Notes: a model not told the origin generated them from the sequence alone. Positions 16,244-28,220 are shown, counted from the stretch's first letter. The stretch is DNA of 64,000 nt from a bacterium (GCA_021822495.1 JAKAQO010000002.1:33034-97033); one strand, 5' to 3'. A program made the numbers and translations.

Positions 16244-17791
16244 TCATCGCAAAACAATCGGAAAAATCTTCGCGCGGACAGACCTTGGTAAAAGCTGGGG
16301 ATTTTGAGAGTGATTTTTTAAATCCGCCTGGGACTCAACCTCGGGAGACAGATAATCGTAGAGAGAGCCCATACTGATATGTTTAAGATTATTGAGAGCT
16401 TTACCGTTAAGGCCGCGCAAAAAATAATAGGTCAAAAGCCCGTGGCCTTGCCGTTTAAGGACCTCGGCGGTTTGGTTGTCCCGCGCGGCGGTCAAAACGA
16501 CGATTTTACCGTTTCCAGGAACAAAGCCGGGGTTAATATGGGTCTCAAGCGGGCGAAGGCCGGGACGGATAATCGAGCGCGGACCCGCTCCGGAGAAACA
16601 AGAGTCTAAAATAACAATCACGCGGTGGGCGGGAATTTTTAAAAGATCGCCGTAAAGCCTTTTTAAAGGATAGGCGGTCTTCGTCAAAAATTCTGGATTC
16701 CCGTCAAAGGGCACTAAATAAGCCTCGCCTGTGTCCGGGTTGGGAGCGCCGTGGCCGGAAAAATAAAAATATACGCGGGAATCTTTTTTGACGTTTTTAG
16801 GAAGCCAATCTTCCAAATAGGCCGCTAAATCGCTTTTGGTTGCGGTCTCGTTAAGCAAAAGGCGCAAATGTTCATCAGGAACCCCCAAGGCTAAAAAATG
16901 CTTTTGAACGGACACGGCGTCCCGCTCAGAAAATTCAGAGGGCATGACGCCTCCGGCATATTTTTCAACGCCGACCACAACCGCAAAATCATCGGGCTTA
17001 ATGGGACTATGATAGGTGGGAGCGTCCACATCGCTTTTAATTTCGGGAGGTTTTTTAGCTTTCTTAGACTCTTTAAGGCTTTCAATTTCTTTTGCCAGAA
17101 CATCCAAGCGATGAGCGATGTTTTTCTGGGTTGAATTTTGCGCTTCTTGCGCGACTCGAGAAGCAATGCGGGTTATTTCTTCTTTTGACAAATTCTGGCC
17201 CGACAAGCGTTCCACCTCACGCCGAGCGCCCGGCGACGGAGGATGAAGACGATAGTCTTCAATGAGCGCAGCAACCTGCTGATGCTCCATCTGGTAGGCA
17301 TAATCCAAAGCCGTGTGGCCGCTGTCGTCCCGCACCCCCACTCTCGCGCCATGTTTCAAAAGAATTCTCACTAAATCCACTTGTCCATATTTCGCGGCAA
17401 GCATCAAAGCCGTATGCCCATATTTGTTTTGCAAATTGACATCCGCCCCATGTCGAATTAAAAACCGAGCGATGCGCGTTCCCTCTTGAGAAGGGGCAAC
17501 TGAAACGCTGAGCGGGCGAAACTTTGGAAACCGAAACGTGGGTTCAATGAAGTTTGTATTTCTCCACAATTGCGGCATATCCGTGTGCCCACCGGATGCG
17601 ATCTCCATTAAGGCTGTGTCGCCAGAGGAATTCGTAGCATTGATGGAAGCGCCTTGAGAAACGAGTATCCGCGCTTGGGAGAAATCCCCATTTGATACGG
17701 CGCTTAAAAAATCGGAATTAAGACCGGCAAAAGCCCAAGACGACGGGAAGAAAGAAATAAAGAATAAAAGGGAAATAGTCCGAGAGTTCAT
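16244..17791 (-). CDS. secreted ankyrin-repeat caspase-like (C14) protease
   Basis: A 515-residue protein: signal peptide (residues 1-22), ankyrin repeats (about 25-180, e.g. NKYGHTALMLAAKYGQVDLVRILLKHGA), a charged coiled linker (190-265), then a caspase-like domain (265-510). The catalytic dyad is intact: His347 in FSGHGAPNP and Cys398 in ILDSCFSGAG. Such bacterial orthocaspases cleave proteins. Its start overlaps the stop of the radical SAM gene (ATGA), so it belongs to the operon that carries the putative precursor peptide. A protease in such an operon could be the leader peptidase, though its signal peptide puts it outside the cytoplasm. A paralogue lies at 56957-58846. Confidence 0.88.
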   Translation of the reverse strand: MNSRTISLLFFISFFPSSWAFAGLNSDFLSAVSNGDFSQARILVSQGASINATNSSGDTALMEIASGGHTDMPQLWRNTNFIEPTFRFPKFRPLSVSVAPSQEGTRIARFLIRHGADVNLQNKYGHTALMLAAKYGQVDLVRILLKHGARVGVRDDSGHTALDYAYQMEHQQVAALIEDYRLHPPSPGARREVERLSGQNLSKEEITRIASRVAQEAQNSTQKNIAHRLDVLAKEIESLKESKKAKKPPEIKSDVDAPTYHSPIKPDDFAVVVGVEKYAGGVMPSEFSERDAVSVQKHFLALGVPDEHLRLLLNETATKSDLAAYLEDWLPKNVKKDSRVYFYFSGHGAPNPDTGEAYLVPFDGNPEFLTKTAYPLKRLYGDLLKIPAHRVIVILDSCFSGAGPRSIIRPGLRPLETHINPGFVPGNGKIVVLTAARDNQTAEVLKRQGHGLLTYYFLRGLNGKALNNLKHISMGSLYDYLSPEVESQADLKNHSQNPQLLPRSVRAKIFPIVLR

Positions 17792-18789
17792 CGCTGATCA
17801 GATTGCTTTAACTCATCCCACGAGTCCCAACACTCATTAGCATGAAGTAACAGGGCGGGGTCTTCCTGCATCCGTTCGACAAATTTTTTAACAATCGGAG
17901 AACTCCAGGCTTGAACGGCTTTTTTCCAAGCGGCATCCAGTTTTTCTTTCTTTAAGTCCGCCGCGTAAAAAGGAAGGGCGTTGAGAAGTTTGACCTTGCC
18001 ATCGGGAACGACCAAGACCATGGATTGCGGGTTTTGAAGCCTGACTGCGGCTTCGCGGCGAATGTCCCAGGGGTAAGCCGAAATTTTGACCGGATTTCCC
18101 AAGACGTTGGCCCGCTCTTTAATTTTTTGAAGCGTCTTTTCCCAAAGTTCATCGGGAATAGATAAACGCTCCCAAGCCGCAGCGGCTCGCCCCAAACGCA
18201 TCATGGGACCAGTCACAAAAAGACGCGCTCCCAATTGGGCGGCCAACTCGTAAGCAGAAACAGCGTCTTCTATATTCAACTTATTCGGCACGAAAACGAA
18301 CTCCGGTTCAAGACCCGCCTGGGCCAAGGCCTTAAGAGAATCAACGGCTTTTTTCCAGGAACCACTGGGCCTGACCCGTTCATGAATTTCAGCCCTTGAG
18401 CCATCCACGCTAATTTGAATGGAGGAAATTCCCAGATGCTTCAAGCGTTCAATGGCCGCATCATCAATAAAAAGCCCGTTGGTCTCGATTTTAATTTGAG
18501 CCCCGCCGCGGCTTAAAATCTCAAAAACATCCCAAGAGTGCTCAATTAAAAGCGGTTCTCCGCCTCCAAAGGCGACATAGGGAATTCCCAGTTCGACGAT
18601 TTGGCGAGATAAGCTTAAGGCTTCTTCTTTTGAGAGTTCTTTTTTCCAAGCCTTATCCGGACCGGATTCCTCGCAACAATGAAGGCAAAAAGAAGTGCAA
18701 CGGTTGGTCAGTTGCCAAGCAAGAAAGAGGGGAGCGCTATAATCTGCGATCCGCGCCCCCCTTCCCTCAGAATCTTTTAGCATCGCCAC
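17788..18789 (-). CDS. radical SAM enzyme 1 of a RiPP-type operon
   Basis: A 333-residue radical SAM protein. The [4Fe-4S] motif CTSFCLHC (Cys31, 35, 38) is followed by GGGEP, IKIETNG and QISVDGS blocks. The C-terminal part has PDGKVKLLNALPFYAADL, the position where SPASM domains carry cluster cysteines, but those are absent. Radical SAM enzymes of this kind modify ribosomal peptides. The gene is the third paralogue in the operon. Its 5' end lies at a 64-bp repeat created with the Fic insertion. The original start was probably the GTG now stranded at 20402, and the present start is GTG 18789 or ATG 18783. Confidence 0.85.
   Translation of the reverse strand: MAMLKDSEGRGARIADYSAPLFLAWQLTNRCTSFCLHCCEESGPDKAWKKELSKEEALSLSRQIVELGIPYVAFGGGEPLLIEHSWDVFEILSRGGAQIKIETNGLFIDDAAIERLKHLGISSIQISVDGSRAEIHERVRPSGSWKKAVDSLKALAQAGLEPEFVFVPNKLNIEDAVSAYELAAQLGARLFVTGPMMRLGRAAAAWERLSIPDELWEKTLQKIKERANVLGNPVKISAYPWDIRREAAVRLQNPQSMVLVVPDGKVKLLNALPFYAADLKKEKLDAAWKKAVQAWSSPIVKKFVERMQEDPALLLHANECWDSWDELKQSDQR
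18699..18762. repeat. 64-bp perfect direct repeat, copy 1
   Basis: Identical over 64 bp to 20327-20390. It encodes the N-terminal RGARIADYSAPLFLAWQLTN part of radical SAM enzyme 1. The two copies bracket the Fic gene, and the duplicated unit is 1628 bp. Confidence 0.92.
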
Positions 18790-18805
18790 AATTTCAGCTA
18801 TCTCG

Positions 18806-20308
18806 TTAAAAACGCTTCATCAAACGCGCTAATGCCGCTGTTAACCCATTGTCAAGAAGTTCATCCAATTCCTTCTTGCGGTCTACAATAATAGAATCCG
18901 CCTTCTCCGCATGCACAAACCGAAATGAATCCTTGTTGCTTTCAATATCGCGCGAGGGAGATTGGACATCCTTTCTCCCAGATGGATCGTCTTCTATGAC
19001 GGCAAATGTCGTCACGGCCATAACGCCCGAGTCTCGGCCAGCGCCATGTAGAGACGTCACATATTTTAACTGCAAGCCTTCAACGCGAATACGAAGGCTC
19101 GCCCAGGAAGAAAAAAGAGTGAAATCAGCCAAATGGCCCGCAACGCGAGAGGAGTTTATAATATCGTTTTTATACCAGTGCGCATTTGAATCGCCGGGAC
19201 CAGCGCAATCAAAGACAATTTTTACATCAGAAATACCTTTTTCCTTAAAGATGCCGCGTAATTCTTCATTTTTCTTTTTAAACCAATGCTGAATTTCTGC
19301 CTGAACCGCTTTAGCTCTACTATTAAGGGCTTTTTGCCTCTGCGTTTCTTGCCTGCGCCGCAAAGCCGAAAGCTGATCCGCAAGAGTGTGCGCGACATCG
19401 GCGGATAGTCCGCCAACAAGAAGCTCTTGCGGCCGCTCCAACTCGCCAGCGAGGGCATTGCTTTCTAAACGCGTAAAAAGAGCGACCAAGGGATTTAAGT
19501 CCCCGTCATTAGCCACATCCAATGCTTTAAGATAGTCATCTCTATGAAAACGATCCACGACCAAAGGCGCAAAATGATGTTTATCAAGAACCAAAAGAGT
19601 GAGAGCGCGCGCAACCCTCCCATTTCCATCAGCGAACGGATGAACGCAAACAAAGCCATGATGAAACCAAGCGGCCTTCACAATTGGGTGAATTTCTTGT
19701 TTAGAATCAATTTCTTCAAACAAACGGACAAGCTCATCCATTTCTGAAGCGACATGCTCCGGAGGAGTGTACTCTAAAATCGTACCGTCTTGCCTTTCCA
19801 CATGATTGGGTTGAATCTTCCACCCGCCATGGTCGAGAGGGACCTCCATTTTTCGGCCATTCACGTCGTAAACGATATGCGTCAACTGGGTACGGGTAAG
19901 CGCGCTATGCAGTTCTTTAATGAATGCCGTGTTAAGATTTCTCTCCGCGCGGACAAATTCAAGCACCATCTGCAGACTATCTCTTTGGGCTTTAAGCGTC
20001 TCCAAAACATCTTCATTAATCCGCCCACCTTCCCGTTCAACGACATCTCGGCTAAAGCCTTCGGCGACAAGAGTCAACGTTAATCCCCAATCAATATCAT
20101 ACAAGCGTTCAATAATACCCGTTTCTATTGATAATTTGCGCAGGCTTCTTTGACGAACCAAAGTCCGCTCTTTTTCCGACATGGATTTTAAATATTCGGC
20201 CCATTCCTCGCGCAGGGAATCAAGGGCCGCCAAGCTCCCATTGGTGGATATTTTTCTCATGTCCAAAGGAGCAATACGGCGCCATGGAATTTTTTTTTCG
20301 TTAGACAT
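18806..20308 (-). CDS. Fic-domain protein (probable AMP transferase)
   Basis: A 500-residue protein with the canonical Fic motif HPFADGNGRVAR at 223-234; Fic enzymes usually transfer AMP to a hydroxyl on a target protein. An N-terminal TGIIER (63-68) matches the position of the inhibitory [S/T]xxxE[G/N] motif but ends in Arg. The C-terminal half (about 290-500) has a coiled stretch and an unrecognised domain. The gene lies between two perfect 64-bp repeats inside the RiPP-type operon, separating the precursor gene from radical SAM gene 1, and looks like a recent insertion. The target is unknown. A toxin-like or regulatory role are both possible. Confidence 0.88.
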   Translation of the reverse strand: MSNEKKIPWRRIAPLDMRKISTNGSLAALDSLREEWAEYLKSMSEKERTLVRQRSLRKLSIETGIIERLYDIDWGLTLTLVAEGFSRDVVEREGGRINEDVLETLKAQRDSLQMVLEFVRAERNLNTAFIKELHSALTRTQLTHIVYDVNGRKMEVPLDHGGWKIQPNHVERQDGTILEYTPPEHVASEMDELVRLFEEIDSKQEIHPIVKAAWFHHGFVCVHPFADGNGRVARALTLLVLDKHHFAPLVVDRFHRDDYLKALDVANDGDLNPLVALFTRLESNALAGELERPQELLVGGLSADVAHTLADQLSALRRRQETQRQKALNSRAKAVQAEIQHWFKKKNEELRGIFKEKGISDVKIVFDCAGPGDSNAHWYKNDIINSSRVAGHLADFTLFSSWASLRIRVEGLQLKYVTSLHGAGRDSGVMAVTTFAVIEDDPSGRKDVQSPSRDIESNKDSFRFVHAEKADSIIVDRKKELDELLDNGLTAALARLMKRF

Positions 20309-20402
20309 AATATTTAGTCAACTGAAAACGGTTGGTCAGTTGCCAAGCAAGAAAGAGGGGAGCGCTATAATCTGCGATCCGCGCCCCCCTCTCGTGAGTC
20401 AC
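20301..20402 (-). pseudogene. stranded 5' end of radical SAM gene 1
   Basis: Starting at GTG 20402, which overlaps the precursor stop (GTGA), the frame reads MTHERGARIADYSAPLFLAW then QLTNR before leaving the homology and stopping inside the Fic gene start. It matches the N termini of the other radical SAM enzymes. I infer it is the original start of radical SAM gene 1, cut off by the Fic insertion. Confidence 0.75.
20327..20390. repeat. 64-bp perfect direct repeat, copy 2
   Basis: Identical to 18699-18762. This copy is continuous with the precursor gene and the original GTG start, so it is likely the ancestral position. Homology ends exactly at both borders. Confidence 0.92.
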
Positions 20403-20521
20403 GTGAACCGAATGTAGGGCTGCGCCATCACCCGCTCGGAAACCTCTTCCATTTTGGGAGTTTCCCAGACGAGCTTTTTCGAGGCTTTCGCCCCCTCGCT
20501 CACGTTTTTTTGGTCGTTCAT
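20399..20521 (-). CDS. putative RiPP precursor peptide (40 residues)
   Basis: A small gene with a strong ribosome-binding site (AAGGAG, 6 bases before the ATG at 20521). The peptide begins with a charged, Lys/Glu-rich leader (MNDQKNVSEGAKASKK), then LVWETPKMEEVSERV and a short end MAQPYIRFT. The W-x-x-P-K-x-x-E pattern resembles leaders bound by PqqD-type recognition domains in radical SAM peptide pathways. The C-terminal Tyr, Ile, Arg, Phe and Thr are candidate modified residues. Its position between radical SAM genes 2 and 1, with a PqqD-like gene in the same operon, is the main functional argument. PqqA and MftA are analogues in role, not clear homologues. Confidence 0.75.
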   Translation of the reverse strand: MNDQKNVSEGAKASKKLVWETPKMEEVSERVMAQPYIRFT

Positions 20522-20540
20522 TCTGTCTCCTTCGTGCCGA

Positions 20541-21509
20541 CTAGACCATAGCCGGCAAATCAGATTCTTCCAAAGGCTTCAAGTGATTCGCTGTCGCTAA
20601 AACCGAAGAATCTTTGAGAATCTCATCAAAGCCTGAAGATATCTTAGGATTTTGATAAGCCTTTTGACACTTCTCCCAAGACTCAATCAAATTTTCTTTT
20701 CTCAAATCAGCGCAGATATAAGGCAAAAAACCTGAAACGCGCACGCGCCCATCCGGCAAAATTAAAAGAGTCGCGGGCATAGCCCCCTTTTTCATTTTTA
20801 AATCTTCTTCGATAGAAAACGGCCTAAATGAGAGTTCCATCTGTCCGGCCAATTCTTTCTCCTTTCTCTCAAGCAGATTATAAAATTTTTTGTATTCGGC
20901 GCGCGAAAGTTCAAGTCTGTCCCACAGTTTTGCCGCGGTCCCAATTCTCATGAGGCTCCCGCTGTTAAAACGAAAAGCCCCGAGACTGGCGGCCAAATCA
21001 ATGACGGCCTCGGCCTCGGCGATGTTAATTTGAGTGGGAGCAAAGGTAATTTCAAGCGGGAGATTGTATTTTCGCGCCGCGCGACAGGCGGAAATAGTTT
21101 TTTCCAGAACCCCTCCTGGGCGCATTTTAGAATAAACGGCCTGGGTGGCCCCGTCTATTGAAATTTGAAGAGAGCGAATCGGCAAGAAAGAGAGTCTCTC
21201 CGCTTCTTTTTCCCCAAAAATTTGCCCATTGGTCTCGATTTTAAGATAGACCGCGCCGCCGCGCCCCAAAGCCTCCGCGACTTCAAAGAAATGCGGGACA
21301 GTCAAGGGTTCTCCCCCCGCTAACAAGACATAGGGAACCTGAGCTTGAATTATTTGATCGGCAACGGACAAAGATTCCTCGCGGTTTAATTCATTGGGAA
21401 AAGGCTTATGGGGCGCGGAATCGGTGCAACAATGGAGACACGCCAGATTGCAATCCCGGGTCATTTGCCAGGCGATAAAACTCGGGGCCGATAGTTCGGA
21501 AATTTTCAC
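20541..21509 (-). CDS. radical SAM enzyme 2 of the RiPP-type operon
   Basis: A 322-residue radical SAM protein when started at GTG 21509, which overlaps the UbiA stop (GTGA). An ATG at 21560 would overlap ubiA by 55 bases and add a non-homologous stretch. The cluster motif is CNLACLHC (Cys20, 24, 27), with LLAGGEPLT, LKIETNG and LQISIDGA following. Near the C terminus is LPDGRVRVSGFLPYICADLR, a SPASM-like core with a single cysteine, so an auxiliary Fe-S cluster is doubtful. Paralogous to enzymes 1 and 3. It probably acts on the peptide encoded 20 bp downstream. Confidence 0.87.
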   Translation of the reverse strand: MKISELSAPSFIAWQMTRDCNLACLHCCTDSAPHKPFPNELNREESLSVADQIIQAQVPYVLLAGGEPLTVPHFFEVAEALGRGGAVYLKIETNGQIFGEKEAERLSFLPIRSLQISIDGATQAVYSKMRPGGVLEKTISACRAARKYNLPLEITFAPTQINIAEAEAVIDLAASLGAFRFNSGSLMRIGTAAKLWDRLELSRAEYKKFYNLLERKEKELAGQMELSFRPFSIEEDLKMKKGAMPATLLILPDGRVRVSGFLPYICADLRKENLIESWEKCQKAYQNPKISSGFDEILKDSSVLATANHLKPLEESDLPAMV

Positions 21510-22426
21510 CGGTGAATAATCAAGCTTAAAGTAAAAACGGAAGTCGCGACCAAATAGCACAAAACGATATTTTTAATGGCTGGAACAAAGAGGCGCGGGC
21601 TGTCCCAGGTTTTCAAAGCGGTCTTCGCGCTGAGAACCCAAAAGGGAATTCCGGCCAAGGCCGCAAAAAAAGCGAGTTTTGGGAAAACGCCCAGAACTGA
21701 TCCGATGATTGAAACCAGAAGCCCCAAAGCGGAAAGCCCCAAATACAGAAAAACGCCGTTTTTGCGCCCCAACCTCACGACCAAATTTCTCTTTCCCACC
21801 AAGCGGTCCTGATAGAAATCAGGAATGGCATTGACAACGGCTAAGGACATAATCAAAAGCCCGGGAACCAAAGACGCCGCCAAAGCGTTCCAAGAAAAAT
21901 GATGGGTGTAAAGGGCTAAACTCCCCAAGGTCATCCACGGCCCATAAGAAAGGCCGATCATGAGTTCTCCCATTCCCCGGTAAACCCAGCGAATGGGCGG
22001 GCCCACATAAAAAAGAGCGGCAAGGCCGCCCAGAAGAGTGTAGAGAATAACGGGCCATCCGCCAAATTTAGCCAAATAAAAGCCGACAGATGCCGCAACC
22101 GCGAAAGAAGCGATTCCCAGCCACAGCATCCACTCCGGGATATATTCATCGTCGGAAGGATTAAAGACGCGATCAGTTCCCATGCGGGCATCAAAATATT
22201 CATTGAAGGACTCAACCCCGACAACCGAGAGAAATATTCCAAACAGCCCAAGCCCGAACAAGTAGAAGGAAAAAGTTTTCTCTACGCCATAGGCCCAGGC
22301 CGAACCTAAAAGATAAGGAAGAAGCCCCGCATAGAGAAAAAACCGGTAGCGAATCAAAGAGAAGACGCGAAAAGGCGCGTCTAAAACTCCAAGACGCTCT
22401 TTTACGATCGCTTCAGCCACGCTCAA
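21506..22426 (-). CDS. UbiA-family prenyltransferase
   Basis: A 306-residue membrane protein with about eight or nine helices and both Asp-rich motifs of the family: NEYFDARMGTD (residues 75-85) and IPDFYQDRLVGKRN. UbiA enzymes attach a polyprenyl chain to an aromatic ring, as MenA does in menaquinone synthesis. The motif DRLVGKRNLVVRLG is MenA-like. It sits between radical SAM genes 3 and 2, with overlaps on both sides, and a polyprenyl diphosphate synthetase begins the operon. The natural inference is prenylation of the pathway's aromatic or peptide-derived product, but an unrelated quinone role is possible. Confidence 0.9.
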   Translation of the reverse strand: MSVAEAIVKERLGVLDAPFRVFSLIRYRFFLYAGLLPYLLGSAWAYGVEKTFSFYLFGLGLFGIFLSVVGVESFNEYFDARMGTDRVFNPSDDEYIPEWMLWLGIASFAVAASVGFYLAKFGGWPVILYTLLGGLAALFYVGPPIRWVYRGMGELMIGLSYGPWMTLGSLALYTHHFSWNALAASLVPGLLIMSLAVVNAIPDFYQDRLVGKRNLVVRLGRKNGVFLYLGLSALGLLVSIIGSVLGVFPKLAFFAALAGIPFWVLSAKTALKTWDSPRLFVPAIKNIVLCYLVATSVFTLSLIIHR

Positions 22427-23400
22427 ACCTCAACCCATTTATGGAGCTTTGAAACCACCGTCGGATCTCTTTCCAGTTCCTGGACAAAGCCGTAAACCTT
22501 CGGGTTTTTCCAGGCTTCCTGAAAATGCTTCCAGACTTGGCCCAGGGATTGCTGGCGCAAATTCCCGCAGACAAAGGGAAGGGCGTTGATGAGTTTCACC
22601 TTGCCGTTGGGCAAGATAATGAAAAGGGCCGCCGGGTTTTCCAGGCGATATTTCAGCTCTTCTAAAATCCCCATTTCATGAAAATACACCCGCATTCGGC
22701 CATCATATTCTTTAGCTTTCAAACGCAAAGTATCAAAAAAGGTGGGGTAATCGGCTTCATCGGGCGCGGTTATCTTCCAGGTCCGAACGGCGTTTCCGGT
22801 GTACATGATTTTTCCGGTGTAGAAGCTGTAAGCTCCAAGCTGGTATGCTAAATCGACCACATCAGCGATTTCCTTGATATTAAATTTCGCTGGAACGAAA
22901 TTAATCTCAATAGGAACCCCCGCTTCGCGCAAATTTTTAATTCCCTCGATGGCCGACTCAAAGCGCCCGTGAATCCGCATCTTATCAAAGGACGCCGGGT
23001 TGGCGCCGTCTAAAGAAACCTGAACGGCCTTGACCCCGAAAGTTTTAAGCCGCTTGCAATTTTCAGGCGTCAAATAATGGCCATTGGTCTCAATTTTAAG
23101 TCCCACCCCGCCTTTGATGATTCTTTCAACCATCTCGAAAAAATGCGGATGAACCATCGGCTCTCCGCCGGAAAATGAGACGTAGGGCACTTGCCCGGCA
23201 ATCAACTGATCGATGACGGAAAAGGCCTCGTCTTTTGTCAGCTCGTCTTTAAAGGCTTTTCCAGGACCCGATTCTTCAATACAATGCAGGCAAGCGAGGT
23301 TACACTCATTGGTAATCTGCCAGGCGACATACAGGGGCGCGCCTAAATCTTCCGAAGAAACGGTTTCGTCCGCTTCTTTAACTTGGGTTACAGAAGCCAT
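22423..23400 (-). CDS. radical SAM enzyme 3 of the RiPP-type operon
   Basis: A 325-residue radical SAM protein with CNLACLHC (Cys33, 37, 40), SFSGGEPMV, LKIETNGHYL and VQVSLDGA. The C-terminal LPNGKVKLINALPFVCGNLR followed by SLGQVW is a clear SPASM-like core (G-N-L/I ... S-L-x-x-V-W), but only one cysteine is present. Its start shares one base with the stop of the PqqD-like gene, and its end overlaps ubiA (ATGA), so the three genes are tightly coupled. It is the most SPASM-like of the three paralogues and a good candidate for first modification of the precursor. Confidence 0.88.
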   Translation of the reverse strand: MASVTQVKEADETVSSEDLGAPLYVAWQITNECNLACLHCIEESGPGKAFKDELTKDEAFSVIDQLIAGQVPYVSFSGGEPMVHPHFFEMVERIIKGGVGLKIETNGHYLTPENCKRLKTFGVKAVQVSLDGANPASFDKMRIHGRFESAIEGIKNLREAGVPIEINFVPAKFNIKEIADVVDLAYQLGAYSFYTGKIMYTGNAVRTWKITAPDEADYPTFFDTLRLKAKEYDGRMRVYFHEMGILEELKYRLENPAALFIILPNGKVKLINALPFVCGNLRQQSLGQVWKHFQEAWKNPKVYGFVQELERDPTVVSKLHKWVEV

Positions 23401-23840
23401 TATTCGATGATGAGGCCCTTGCCTTTGAGCTCGCTTAAAAAGCTGGCGGCCTCTTTTTCCATGTTTCCAGATGAGTCTTCGTATTTTTCCTTAAGTTTTC
23501 CAATCAAAGACGAAGAATCAGCTCCGGCGACGATCTCCCGCACAACGGCCGCGCCGGTCGGGCTTAAAGTATAAACTTTCTCGGAACGCGTCTCAAACAA
23601 AACCGCTCCAAATTTCTCTTCTCTAAATTTCACAAACGGCGCTAATTTCATGACTCCTCCCTTTGATGCGGCTAAACACGAAGACGCGTCCGCCGCTTCT
23701 CTTTCGATGATTTCCTCTAGTTCCCGCCGCACGTTCTCGCGGTTCTGAACATTTTTTGCGTCCTTTGAATTTGCGTCATCTTCCGATACGACAAAATCCC
23801 CCGACTTCCAGGCTTTCTTTAAAAGAGATTGATAGGACAT
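23400..23840 (-). CDS. PqqD-like peptide recognition protein
   Basis: A 146-residue protein. Residues 65-146 match the PqqD/MftB fold: LAPFVKFREEKFGAVLFETR, then VYTLSPTGAAVVREIV, KLKEKYED and a final FLSELKGKGLIIE. PqqD-type proteins bind the precursor leader and present it to the radical SAM enzyme. The first 60 residues are a charged extension, possibly a linker or coiled region. It is coupled to the polyprenyl synthetase upstream and radical SAM gene 3 downstream by one-base overlaps. This is the strongest single indicator of a RiPP-type pathway. Confidence 0.87.
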   Translation of the reverse strand: MSYQSLLKKAWKSGDFVVSEDDANSKDAKNVQNRENVRRELEEIIEREAADASSCLAASKGGVMKLAPFVKFREEKFGAVLFETRSEKVYTLSPTGAAVVREIVAGADSSSLIGKLKEKYEDSSGNMEKEAASFLSELKGKGLIIE

Positions 23841-24793
23841 TAAAATTCTCTTTTGGCCATCACTTCAATAAAGAAAGACAAATCCTTGGCTTCATTTTTT
23901 AAGGGCAAGCCCTGACAAAGGGTTTTCATGGAATCGACAATCTCCCGCCCTTTAGAGCGGGCCTCATCCAAAAATCCTTCCGCCTTCACAAATGAAATCG
24001 CCTGCTTGACCGCTTGAAGATCGGTTTCGCCTTTGCGCCACAAATCTAAAAAATCTCCGCGGGTTTTTTGGTTTTGAAGAGCGAGAATGCAAGGGAGCGT
24101 CAAACGGCGGTTCAACATATCCTGGGCCGCGGGCTTGCCTGAAACTTCTTCGGTCAGTAAAAAATCGTGAATATCATCCACAATCTGAAGCAAGATTCCG
24201 GCGGATAAAGCGAGCCTTGGCGGATCGGAAGCATCATGGGGAAAAGGACTGATTTCAGAAAGAACTTTTCCGCACCATTCAAAGAGAGCCCCAGTTTTTC
24301 GAGCGGCGATTCCCAAATAAGCCTCAACCGAAACTTCAACGCTCCCCTTTAAAAATTCTTCCTGGAGTTCCCCGGCCGCCATTTCCCGAACCGTCGTCAC
24401 CAAATGTTCCGGCGCGCGCGGAGAAATATCAATGGCTTCCTCAAGCCCTTGAGAAAAAGCAAGATCGCCTAGAAGAAGAGCGACCGTGTTTCCGAAAAGA
24501 GCGTTTGGGGTCGCGAGTCCCCGCCTGGTGTCAGCCTTATCCACGCAATCATCATGCAAAAGAGAAGCGTTATGGACAAACTCCATCGCGCGGGAAGCCG
24601 CCTCCGCTTTTTTCTCATCCACGCCCAAGGCTTTGGCTAGTAACAGACAAAAACGCGCCCGCAGCATTTTTCCCGGGCGGCCGACGTATCCGGCCAGGGT
24701 TTCGCCCACGCGGCCGGACAAGCGCTTCGAGCGGTTTTCCATGCCGAGCCGAACCCGCTCGACCGAATCTTCAAGACTAAGTAAAGTCAACAT
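23840..24793 (-). CDS. polyprenyl diphosphate synthetase (first gene of the operon)
   Basis: A 317-residue trans-prenyltransferase. The first Asp-rich motif is DDCVD in LLHDDCVDKADTRRG (residues 81-85) and the second is DDIHD in LQIVDDIHD. GRPGKMLRARFCLLLAKALG is the substrate-binding start. Both motifs needed for Mg-dependent chain elongation are intact. The enzyme makes a polyprenyl diphosphate of unknown length, the likely donor for the UbiA protein two genes on. A promoter-like sequence lies 15 bases before its ATG. Confidence 0.9.
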   Translation of the reverse strand: MLTLLSLEDSVERVRLGMENRSKRLSGRVGETLAGYVGRPGKMLRARFCLLLAKALGVDEKKAEAASRAMEFVHNASLLHDDCVDKADTRRGLATPNALFGNTVALLLGDLAFSQGLEEAIDISPRAPEHLVTTVREMAAGELQEEFLKGSVEVSVEAYLGIAARKTGALFEWCGKVLSEISPFPHDASDPPRLALSAGILLQIVDDIHDFLLTEEVSGKPAAQDMLNRRLTLPCILALQNQKTRGDFLDLWRKGETDLQAVKQAISFVKAEGFLDEARSKGREIVDSMKTLCQGLPLKNEAKDLSFFIEVMAKREF

Positions 24794-24908: not shown

Positions 24909-25748
24909 CTAATTTAGGCGGCTCTCCCAATCCCGGATGATTTCCAGAACCCAACTCTTGCGCGCGGTCAAATCGCAAAAGCGGTTGGCGGTCTCATCGC
25001 TATAGCCCATGCCGGACCTTGTATCGTTGGGATTAAGCTGGGAGGAGATAATTCCCGCAACCTCCCATTGATTGTTGTTTCGGATTAAAAGCGGACCACC
25101 GGATTCGCCGGGGCTTGTGACGCAGTCGGAGAGAATAGCTCCGTTCTTTATGTTCCGTATTGAGCAGTGAGGGCTGATTTCTTCATCCCCGCCGGGAAAG
25201 CCGAGCGCGACGGCGGCTTGGCCGACCGAGAATTTATCGGCGATGGTTAAACCCTCGCCGGAGAGAAAAAGCGGCTCTTTAAAGAGCAAAACGGCCATGT
25301 CCGTCCGCGAGTCGATAGCGCCATTGCCGACCGGCTTTTGATAGCCGGGGAGAAAGACGATCCGGAAAACCCGGACTTTCTTTTTCCGGCCTCTTGACTC
25401 ATATCGAAACGTGTACCCGCCCTTCTTGTCCACGCAGTGGGCGGCGGTCAAGGCGGCGCGGCGGGAGACGATGAACGCCGTGCAGGTTCCTTCGCTCCCG
25501 CTGAGTCGTCCGACTAAACTATAGGGGCTTTCCGATGAATCCTCGATGGGTTCGCGGTTGTCGTCGTAGCTAAAATACCCCGCCAGGACCGCGCGCGGCG
25601 GATGGATATTCCGCCGCGCTTGCCTCATCTCGCTTGAAGCCTCGCGAAAGGAGGACGCAAGGTTTATCGCGGAATCTTCTGCCGCGAGGACCGGGGCGGC
25701 CAAGGCCGCCCACAGCCCCAGACCTAGAAGGACGCTTTTTCCTTGCAT
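24909..25748 (-). CDS. secreted trypsin-like serine protease (S1)
   Basis: A 279-residue protein with a signal peptide (ending AALAAPVLAA) and a chymotrypsin-fold domain. The triad is complete: His104 in LTAAHC, Asp150 in TDMAVL and Ser216 in GESGGPL. Six cysteines in the mature part may form disulfides. It lies 13 bp after a glycine-zipper protein gene on the same strand. A second, internally deleted copy of this gene is at 27511-27713 and a shorter remnant at 33690-33757. The preceding secreted protein is a possible substrate or partner. Confidence 0.9.
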   Translation of the reverse strand: MQGKSVLLGLGLWAALAAPVLAAEDSAINLASSFREASSEMRQARRNIHPPRAVLAGYFSYDDNREPIEDSSESPYSLVGRLSGSEGTCTAFIVSRRAALTAAHCVDKKGGYTFRYESRGRKKKVRVFRIVFLPGYQKPVGNGAIDSRTDMAVLLFKEPLFLSGEGLTIADKFSVGQAAVALGFPGGDEEISPHCSIRNIKNGAILSDCVTSPGESGGPLLIRNNNQWEVAGIISSQLNPNDTRSGMGYSDETANRFCDLTARKSWVLEIIRDWESRLN

Positions 25749-25760
25749 GAATTCTTATTA

Positions 25761-26336
25761 TTAATCGTCGTTGCTGACAGCCTTGGGATCGGCAGTTCCT
25801 ACAACGCTTCCGATGATACCACCTACTATTGCCCCCGCAATTCCAAGAGGAAACAGAAGAACTCCAAAAAACGTGGCTACGGTCTCGCCACTGCTATCAT
25901 GGAGATCATGGGATGACTGTGCGATAAAGGCAGGGAAATCTGCAATCATGAACCCTTTATAGACCCCCGTTTTGGCCCCATTTTTAAGCCCTTCTATGTG
26001 CGAAGGAGCATCAGACGTTCCCTTATATCCCGGAATAGCTAGAGACTCGCGGCAGCCAGGGACGGTGACGTCGCATTTCGCGGCGGCTTTCTTTTCCTGG
26101 GCCTTCGCCAAATGAAGTTTGTTAGCCGAGGTCTTAATGTTCTTAAGACCCTTCAGCGTCTGGGCCGCTTGGCTGTTTTGGTTTTTTCCCATCGCCATGT
26201 GAGGAACCGCGAGATCAAACATCTGACTCGCGCCAATGGATTGAGTCTCGATACTGTCCGTAGCATAGGCGGACACGTTGGCCAATCCCAAGCACAGAAG
26301 CCCGAGGACGGCGGCTTGAACTTTCACGTTTTTCAT
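25761..26336 (-). CDS. secreted glycine-zipper protein, paralogue 1
   Basis: A 191-residue protein with a signal peptide (LGLLCLGLANVSAYA). A shared segment follows (DSIETQSIGASQMFDLAVPH, AAQTLKGLKNIK), then a small cysteine loop CDVTVPGC and a C-terminal hydrophobic segment LGIAGAIVGGIIGSVVG with repeated G-x3-G spacing, a glycine zipper that could insert in a membrane. The ribosome-binding site is AAGAGG. It pairs with the S1 protease gene downstream. Paralogues are at 26588-27361 and, broken, at 27760-28220. No known family recognised. Confidence 0.72.
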   Translation of the reverse strand: MKNVKVQAAVLGLLCLGLANVSAYATDSIETQSIGASQMFDLAVPHMAMGKNQNSQAAQTLKGLKNIKTSANKLHLAKAQEKKAAAKCDVTVPGCRESLAIPGYKGTSDAPSHIEGLKNGAKTGVYKGFMIADFPAFIAQSSHDLHDSSGETVATFFGVLLFPLGIAGAIVGGIIGSVVGTADPKAVSNDD

Positions 26337-26478
26337 TTCTGATTTACCTCTTAATTTACGATTTGACTGCGTTGGCGTCCCAACGCCAGCGCCATGTTCT
26401 GATATCCTAGCACGCTCCGGAAAAAATCCGTATGGGTCTAAAGGCCTAGAAAAGCTCCGGCAGAAGGCCCAAACCTTT
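26337..26478 (-). promoter_or_regulatory. shared upstream module, copy 1
   Basis: The 5' flank of paralogue 1. It holds a conserved block at 26425-26454 (CTTTAGACCCATACGGATTT on the minus strand), a perfect TGGCGTTGGGACGCCA-type hairpin and AAGAGGT as ribosome-binding site. Near-identical copies precede 26588-27361 and, in diverged form, the ankyrin gene. The regulator is unknown. Confidence 0.55.
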
Positions 26479-26587
26479 TGACCTATTAGGTTAAATTAGT
26501 ATTAGCATGATCAAACGATTTGTCTTGGATCAGCTACTCGCCGAGATAGAAAACCCGGAAAATCATCCGCTGCAATCTTCCCCAAGA

Positions 26588-27361
26588 TTAGATCTTCCCT
26601 CGGGTAATGAAACCTACAATAGCCCCAATCAAAGCTCCGACTAAAGCGGCGGCGAAAAGAAGCGCAAATCCCATGGGTCCAGAAAGTTGCATCGCTCCAA
26701 GCATGAGTCCAATATCAATAGGAGAGATAACAACAGCCCCAATAAAAGCTCCCAAGCCGGCGCCATTAAGAGCGGCTTCCCCTCGTCCCATTGTTCCCTC
26801 ATATTGCGGCGCGGGGAAACACCCAGGAACGGTGACATCGCACTTTTTCACGCTCATTCCCGCTTGAGCCATCAGAGTAGGCAACGCGGCGGAGAGGATT
26901 TGGGCGCTGGCCGGATCCTTTATGTTTTTGATCGCGGCCATGATTTCCGCGCATCTCGAAATCTTGGCGTCGCATTTCGCCGTGACTTCCTTATTGGCCA
27001 GCATCGTTTGAACTTCCGCGCTGAGGGCCAAAACATCCTCCGGGGTCTTTATCTTTTTGAACGCGGCCAATGTCTCCCGGCAACCAGGAACAGTCACGTC
27101 ACATTGGATTTGAATCCCCTGTTTCGCTACCGCCAAATGAAGTTTATTGGCCGAGGTCTTGATGTTCTTAAGACCCTTGAGGGTCTGGGCCGCTTGGCTG
27201 TTTTGGTTTTTTCCCATCGCCATGTGAGGAACCGCGAGATCAAACATCTGACTCGCGCCAATGGCTTGAGTCTCGATACTGTCCGTAGCATAGGCGGACA
27301 CGTTGGCCAATCCCAAGCACAGAAGACCCAAGGCGACGGCTTTCATTTTCATGTTTTTCAT
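26588..27361 (-). CDS. secreted glycine-zipper protein, paralogue 2
   Basis: A 257-residue relative of paralogue 1. The first 90 residues are almost identical. The middle contains three cysteine-bounded segments (CDVTVPGC, CDAKISRC, CDVTVPGC) separated by about 45-residue helical repeats. The end is a long hydrophobic region rich in Gly and Ala (GAGLGAFIGAVV, LLFAAALVGALIGAIVG). A longer frame to 27559 exists, but the ATG at 27361 has the AAGAGGT ribosome-binding site and gives a proper signal peptide. The repeat expansion in the middle suggests internal duplication. Confidence 0.72.
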   Translation of the reverse strand: MKNMKMKAVALGLLCLGLANVSAYATDSIETQAIGASQMFDLAVPHMAMGKNQNSQAAQTLKGLKNIKTSANKLHLAVAKQGIQIQCDVTVPGCRETLAAFKKIKTPEDVLALSAEVQTMLANKEVTAKCDAKISRCAEIMAAIKNIKDPASAQILSAALPTLMAQAGMSVKKCDVTVPGCFPAPQYEGTMGRGEAALNGAGLGAFIGAVVISPIDIGLMLGAMQLSGPMGFALLFAAALVGALIGAIVGFITRGKI

Positions 27362-27500
27362 TTCTGATTTACCTCTTAATTCACGGTTTGACTGCGTTGG
27401 CGTTCCAACGCCAGCGCCATGTTCTGATATCCTATCACGCTCCGGAAAAAATCCGTATGGGTCCAAAGACCTAGAAAAGTCGCGGCAAAGGACCCAGGGC
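27362..27500 (-). promoter_or_regulatory. shared upstream module, copy 2
   Basis: About 90 percent identical by eye to copy 1, with the conserved block at 27450-27479 and the TGGCGTTGGAACGCCA hairpin at about 27395-27410. It ends where the broken protease gene begins. Confidence 0.55.
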
Positions 27501-27510
27501 GGGAGGACGT

Positions 27511-27713
27511 TTAAATCGGAGTTCGCGCAGCCCAGTTCGAGATGAAGGATAAAATCCAACCCTTGCGCGCGGCCAAATCTGTTCGTGGATCGGGGGCATC
27601 AAGGCCTCGCGAAAGGAGGACTCAAGGCTTATTCCGGAAGCCTCCGCCGTGAGGGCCGGGGCGGTAAAAACCGCCCACAGCCCCAGACCCAGAAGAACGC
27701 TTTTTCCCCGCAT
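27511..27713 (-). pseudogene. internally deleted S1 protease gene
   Basis: The 5' part encodes MRGKSVLLGLGLWAVFTAPA and the SSFREA segment of the neighbouring protease. The 3' part, in another frame, encodes DLAARKGWILSFISNWAAR and a stop at 27511-27513, matching the protease C terminus DLTARKSWVLEIIRDWESR. The whole catalytic domain between them is missing. This is a dead copy from tandem duplication. Confidence 0.8.
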
Positions 27714-27759
27714 GAATCCTCTGTATTCCCACAGGGGATATCATTCCCCATGTATGCGC

Positions 27760-28220
27760 CTAGTCGTTATAGTCTTGGGGATTTACAAGTCCGTTGCTTC
27801 CTCCAATGACACTTCCGATCAATCCGCCAACAAGACCGAGGGGAGCAAGAAGCACGCCGAAGAATGTGAACATATCCTGAACTCCCCGATCGCCGCGATT
27901 AGCGGCTTGCTGCGCCAATGACGCCGGAAAATCTCCAATAAAGAACCCTTGGGTAGCTCCCACTTTAACCCCATCCTTGAGTCCCTCCCAATGCCGCGAA
28001 TCGGACGTTCCCTTATACTCCGGAACGGCCATGGACTCGCGGCAACCAGGGACGGTGACGTCGCATTTCGCGGCGGCTTTCTTTTCCTGGGCCTTCGCCA
28101 AATGAAGTTTATTGGCCGAGGCCTTGATGTTCTTAAGACCCTTGAGGGTCTGGGCCGCCTGGCTGTTTTGATTTTTTCCCATCGCCATGTGAGGAACCGC
28201 GAGGATCAAACATCTGACTC
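27760..28220 (-). pseudogene. broken glycine-zipper protein gene, paralogue 3
   Basis: The readable part (from 28209) encodes LAVPHMAMGKNQNSQAAQ, CDVTVPGC and a C-terminal glycine zipper, close to paralogue 1. Homology ends at about 28220, so signal peptide and promoter are lost. One extra base near 28203 shifts the frame at Phe-Asp-Leu. Without a signal the product could not be exported normally. Confidence 0.75.

Follow-up and report, generated by a model that had tools for sequence, protein, structure and literature searches.

A conserved operon of Elusimicrobiota joining a short peptide, radical SAM enzymes and a UbiA prenyltransferase: a candidate route to a peptide-derived, prenylated membrane product

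What might be made by an operon in which a 40-residue peptide is encoded among three radical SAM (rSAM) enzymes and a membrane prenyltransferase? The question is raised by positions 17788-24793 of a 64,000-nucleotide stretch of DNA (the window; GCA_021822495.1 JAKAQO010000002.1:33034-97033) on contig C15 of the metagenome-assembled Elusimicrobiota genome G000. Its gene content very probably reflects the synthesis of a ribosomally synthesized and post-translationally modified peptide (RiPP) coupled to prenylation. We give about an even chance to a product that acts as a membrane redox carrier in place of menaquinone. More tentatively, its peptide-derived ring may be used as the general respiratory quinone of an order of this phylum.

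The genes lie on the minus strand in the order trans-polyprenyl diphosphate synthase (PPS, 23840-24793), PqqD-like protein (23400-23840), rSAM3 (22423-23400), UbiA-superfamily prenyltransferase (21506-22426), rSAM2 (20541-21560), the peptide (20399-20521), a Fic-domain protein (18806-20308) and rSAM1 (17788-18789). Pfam domains were found for polyprenyl_synt (PF00348, 152 bits), PqqD (PF05402, 39.6 bits), UbiA (PF01040, 73 bits) and, three times, Radical_SAM (PF04055; 95 bits for rSAM3 and 88 bits for rSAM1). PPS/PqqD and PqqD/rSAM3 overlap by 1 base and rSAM3/UbiA by 4 bases. For rSAM2, 21560 is the first start of the longest open reading frame (ORF); GTG 21509, which overlaps the UbiA stop, is the likelier start and gives a 4-base overlap of UbiA and rSAM2 as well. 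A gap of 19 bp separates rSAM2 from the peptide. An earlier note on this DNA had described a seven-gene minus-strand operon from which rSAM1 was split off by a Fic insertion. Both points held: all ORFs were present with the named domains, and a 1.5-kb Fic gene stands between the peptide and rSAM1 in the window's genome only.

The peptide (MNDQKNVSEGAKASKKLVWETPKMEEVSERVMAQPYIRFT) is preceded by a GAAGGAG ribosome-binding site 5 bases before its ATG. It comprises a leader with the motif WETP (20456-20467), of the WxxP type, and a C-terminal core, VMAQPYIRFT (20402-20431), the proposed precursor of the product. A search of 340 genomes of the phylum with a DNA pattern encoding MAQPYIRFT returned 48 exact matches, spread over 47 genomes. 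The one mismatch that was tolerated was never needed, and the reversed pattern gave 0 matches in the same genomes. Homologues of the peptide were also recovered independently by similarity search, with an identical terminus throughout. The final ten residues showed no variation at the protein level, while their codons differed (for instance, four Ala and four Pro codons). Because the pattern used to gather this codon table fixes nine of the ten core residues, the similarity-based set is the unbiased evidence. The leader was variable in length and sequence, with the W and P of WxxP present in every peptide having an intact leader. By the same kind of argument, from a short linked peptide that is invariant at the protein level, Haft predicted mycofactocin to be a peptide-derived electron carrier (PMC3023750).

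The genomes used for comparison were, as far as named, metagenome assemblies. The PqqD-like protein was detected in 36 of 57 near relatives, and the surrounding DNA showed the order PPS-PqqD-rSAM3-UbiA-rSAM2-peptide-rSAM1 to be kept in one Elusimicrobiota order, in about 35 of its genomes; the departures were contig ends, broken frames and a few losses. Frames were broken in UbiA of G004 (two frames, L112 7350-8290) and in rSAM1 of G036 (several, L151 1134-2000), by decay or assembly error. In nearly all relatives the peptide abuts or overlaps the start of rSAM1, and none has a Fic gene there. The earlier note had regarded operons lacking the peptide as fatal to a RiPP interpretation; the peptide was present between rSAM2 and rSAM1 in all operons of the order on complete contigs. 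Linkage of peptide, PqqD, rSAM and UbiA extended, reduced or rearranged, to two further families of the same class: PqqD-rSAM3-UbiA-rSAM2-peptide-rSAM1 was found in G332 (family f5), and only the four genes peptide-PqqD-rSAM-UbiA in G153 and G241 (family f13), to which G251, with a contig beginning at PqqD, is related. With the gene order kept in about 35 genomes and 48 peptide matches against 0 in the control, conservation of the operon exceeds chance.

Clustering of the operon flanks yielded no clear partner gene, shadow ORFs dominating the clusters. The peptide pattern had no match in viral contigs, and tblastn with rSAM3 against plasmids returned distant rSAMs only, MftC included. One plasmid of Indioceanicola profundi (L203 3995-7850) carries an rSAM gene, a PqqD-family chaperone and two more rSAM genes; UbiA is absent from this cluster. 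A search of the accessible literature retrieved no paper joining UbiA, radical SAM and RiPP, nor the string MAQPYIRFT.

The PqqD-like protein is extended at its N terminus by about 60 residues. Its top NCBIfam match was the lasso PqqD family, under cut-off, and it matched TfuB1 (6jx3) in the PDB. Domains of this kind, RiPP recognition elements (RREs), bind WxxP or YxxP leader motifs (PMC13381572), and WETP is the proposed binding site here. The operon thus has both a short precursor, conserved and linked, that divides into leader and core, and an RRE/PqqD domain with a matching leader motif, as RiPP systems do. It resembles lasso systems in the nearest kin of the PqqD-like protein and in the WxxP motif, whereas lasso cyclase and peptidase are absent and the core is dissimilar to lasso peptides.

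All three rSAMs retain the CX3CX2C motif. At most one C-terminal cysteine is conserved, in rSAM3 within LPFxCG; the set of C-terminal cysteines that serves auxiliary Fe-S clusters in SPASM/twitch maturases is thus not present. The AlphaFold model of rSAM3 (predicted local distance difference test score, pLDDT, 92) had SkfB, PqqE (rank 2), BlsE and SuiB as best Foldseek matches, and the solved structures nearest to it are mostly RiPP maturases (SkfB, PqqE, SuiB). In a tree rSAM1-3 formed one clade (95/95) outside PqqE, MftC, SkfB, MoaA and the NirJ group, and the single rSAM of family f13 fell inside it. Because they form a clade of their own, the three rSAMs would most simply have arisen by duplication within this system. 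A heme-type identity was rejected, as NirJ, TIGR04053 and TIGR04347 were placed in a separate clade. Clustering with non-peptide enzymes, which the earlier note had named as a second result fatal to the RiPP interpretation, was therefore not seen; the clade stands apart from the heme and MoaA enzymes.

Does the operon belong to a known cofactor system? The comparison with pyrroloquinoline quinone (PQQ), mycofactocin and GeoRSP families that the earlier note had called for placed the rSAMs below every equivalog cut-off. Mycofactocin is alike in its short precursor, whose C terminus is invariant, in a PqqD-type chaperone beside rSAM and peptide, in an rSAM maturase of related sequence (the rSAMs scored 101-133 bits against the MftC model, TIGR03962), in the lack of a transporter or immunity gene and in its redox-cofactor logic. 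Yet the best of these scores, 133 bits for rSAM3, is under the MftC cut-off of 265 bits, the rSAMs lie outside the MftC clade, and the PqqD-like protein scored 20 bits against the MftB cut-off of 33. The core is VMAQPYIRFT, ending in YIRFT instead of the invariant CGVY of mycofactocin precursors (PMC3023750), and the operon is without glycosyltransferase, MftD and MftE and has three rSAMs, UbiA and PPS. With PQQ it shares a Tyr in the peptide core, a PqqD-domain protein and a PqqE-like fold. In contrast, the rSAMs scored at most 84 bits against PqqE (TIGR02109, cut-off 381 bits) and are without SPASM cysteines, PqqB and PqqC were not among the scanned operon proteins, and prenylation enzymes are present. 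GeoRSP systems likewise combine rSAM and PqqD-domain proteins. The kinship with them that had been suggested did not stand, the rSAMs scoring 65-92 bits against a TIGR04303 cut-off of 400, with no GeoRSP PqqD or SPASM partner among the matches.

The isoprenoid side of the operon consists of the two enzymes on which isoprenoid-quinone synthesis relies, a UbiA-family prenyltransferase and a polyprenyl diphosphate synthase. UbiA is MenA-like: its top NCBIfam matches were MenA models (100 bits against a cut-off of 264, and 55 against 102), UBIAD1 was its sole PDB match better than E 0.9, and both Asp motifs were kept across 36 homologues. PPS kept both DDxxD motifs across 34 homologues and would provide the isoprenoid tail. 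A second UbiA match in the genomes usually lies near COX1. In the window's genome this only other UbiA-family gene encodes heme O synthase, which leaves the operon UbiA as the sole candidate for a quinone prenyltransferase there. Compared with the Men and futalosine pathways of menaquinone, the operon shares a MenA-like UbiA with a polyprenyl synthetase and has peptide, rSAM and PqqD in place of ring-forming genes. Prenylated RiPPs would be alike in bearing a prenyl group on a ribosomal peptide; the operon differs in that its UbiA is of an integral membrane family and is paired with PPS. All RiPP prenyltransferases known to us are soluble, and we know of no peptide-derived redox cofactor of the PQQ or mycofactocin kind whose synthesis uses a membrane prenyltransferase resembling MenA.

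These parts suggest the following scheme. The 40-residue precursor would be made by the ribosome, and the PqqD-like protein would bind its WxxP leader and present the core to the three rSAM paralogues, whose modification of the core, probably in its Tyr/Phe region, would give a redox ring. PPS would supply a long isoprenoid diphosphate that the MenA-like UbiA would join to the aromatic unit, and the product would shuttle electrons in the membrane from complex I to the oxidase branch. We infer the order of the steps, the modified residue, the cleavage, the redox activity and the respiratory role. The peptide-derived, prenylated, membrane-bound product proposed in the earlier note is supported as a fit to the gene content. 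A respiratory quinone, in contrast, was not part of that note; we propose this role because of genome-wide searches for respiratory and quinone genes.

NuoH of complex I was found in 56 of the 56 genomes of the order and the cytochrome oxidase gene COX1 in 50. In none of the 56 was MqnA/MqnD (PF02621) of the futalosine pathway detected, although controls were, and none had MenD (TIGR00173) of the classical menaquinone pathway over cut-off. Sister families carry MqnA/MqnD, but never together with the operon. Across the phylum the operon, fragments counted, occurred in 51 genomes, MqnA/MqnD in 30 and both in 0; among the 85 COX1-bearing genomes the numbers were 42 with the operon, 26 with MqnA/MqnD, 0 with both and 17 with neither. 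One weak partial PF02621 match in G332, common to its family, was not counted as MqnA. The two menaquinone pathways are likewise mutually exclusive according to a 2026 survey of bacterial quinones, the consulted sections of which name no peptide-derived quinone (PMC13386864). Two genomes of family f13 offer hints that may point to respiration and prove nothing: in one, genes for ResB and for the assembly of cytochrome c follow the operon, and the other has a gene of the DsbD type. If the respiratory reading is true, a respiratory quinone would be derived from a ribosomal peptide, which would account for a whole order respiring without known menaquinone genes. Such a route, a possibility that we rate a little below even, would be of a new kind, separate from the ubiquinone/plastoquinone type and from the two pathways to menaquinone. 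The locus provides a named precursor and a minimal set of four genes, and it makes a clear prediction for lipidomics.

Several observations weigh against a general respiratory role. The 17 COX1-bearing genomes with neither operon nor MqnA/MqnD, the MenD search having covered the order only, include the well-assembled G005 (99% complete) and G006 (97%), and they imply that oxidase genes alone do not require the operon. G005, G006, G007 and G009 (88-99% complete) have complex I and COX1, are operon-less and showed no MqnA/MqnD and no MenD over cut-off; their respiratory genes imply another quinone source or uptake there. COX1 was not detected in nine operon genomes, including the three of family f13. 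The mutual exclusion of operon and MqnA/MqnD is confounded with phylogeny, as the counts follow lineages and p-values calculated from them exaggerate the evidence. As to the chemistry, the cysteine survey found the SPASM set, which peptide maturases usually have, missing from rSAM1-3, and the operon has no peptidase or late-stage oxidoreductase, in contrast to PQQ and mycofactocin.

The strongest alternative is a membrane-anchored, prenylated peptide cofactor, otherwise akin to PQQ or mycofactocin, that serves one or a few enzymes, the general quinone coming from another route or uptake. It is unlikely in our estimate, though it draws on identical RiPP evidence (invariant peptide, linkage, rSAM clade) and would accommodate both the respiratory genes of the four operon-less genomes, with no known menaquinone genes, and the f13 operon genomes without COX1. 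On the other hand, quinone tails are usually supplied by a MenA-like UbiA together with PPS, and no client enzyme gene was consistently linked in the flanks read.

Alternatively, menaquinone or some other conventional quinone could be made here by a route not yet recognised: UbiA would act as a genuine MenA, with the ring made or supplied by the rSAM/peptide part. That MenA models and UBIAD1 are nearest to UbiA agrees with this, but every MenA model remained far under its cut-off, and we know of no precedent for a naphthoate ring formed from VMAQPYIRFT. We regard this explanation as improbable even though, according to the quinone survey, some cyanobacteria make menaquinone or phylloquinone by no known pathway and an alternative route is suggested (PMC13386864).

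Equally improbable is a lipidated RiPP natural product, such as a signal, an antibiotic or a membrane lipopeptide, with no function as a redox carrier. Antibiotic cores usually diversify, whereas this core is invariant over three family-level lineages; the conserved unit is without transporter or immunity gene, and the operon is nearly universal in an order. Precedent for such a product is given by known prenylated RiPPs (PMC12715784).

Action of the rSAMs on heme or an isoprenoid, with the small ORF as a regulatory or scaffold peptide, is very improbable: NCBIfam scores were about equal for heme-synthesis models (AhbD, NirJ2) and MftC and the SPASM cysteines are absent, but the tree sets the rSAMs apart from NirJ and its kin, and the PqqD/RRE protein, the WxxP leader and the invariant C terminus would be left unexplained.

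Finally, we considered the neighbouring genes as parts of the system favoured here, RiPP-type synthesis coupled to prenylation. The Fic-domain protein (PF02661, 66.7 bits) was rejected, as it occurs in no other operon examined, and lies outside the conserved system. A trypsin-like gene upstream of the operon (24909-25748, minus strand) was dismissed as leader peptidase, being found in this genome only among the loci compared. The gene at 16244-17791 (minus strand) has a 4-base overlap with the end of rSAM1, and its product, predicted to be secreted, combines ankyrin repeats with a caspase (Peptidase_C14) domain; as the gene adjoins rSAM1 only in the window's genus, it was not accepted as an operon partner. 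Several more radical SAM matches in the window's genome (G000:C4:452430-487342) are unrelated to the operon. In the window, 25761-28209 (minus strand) encodes tandem paralogous small proteins with the common stretches MAMGKNQNSQAAQTLKGLKNIK and KCDVTVPGC.

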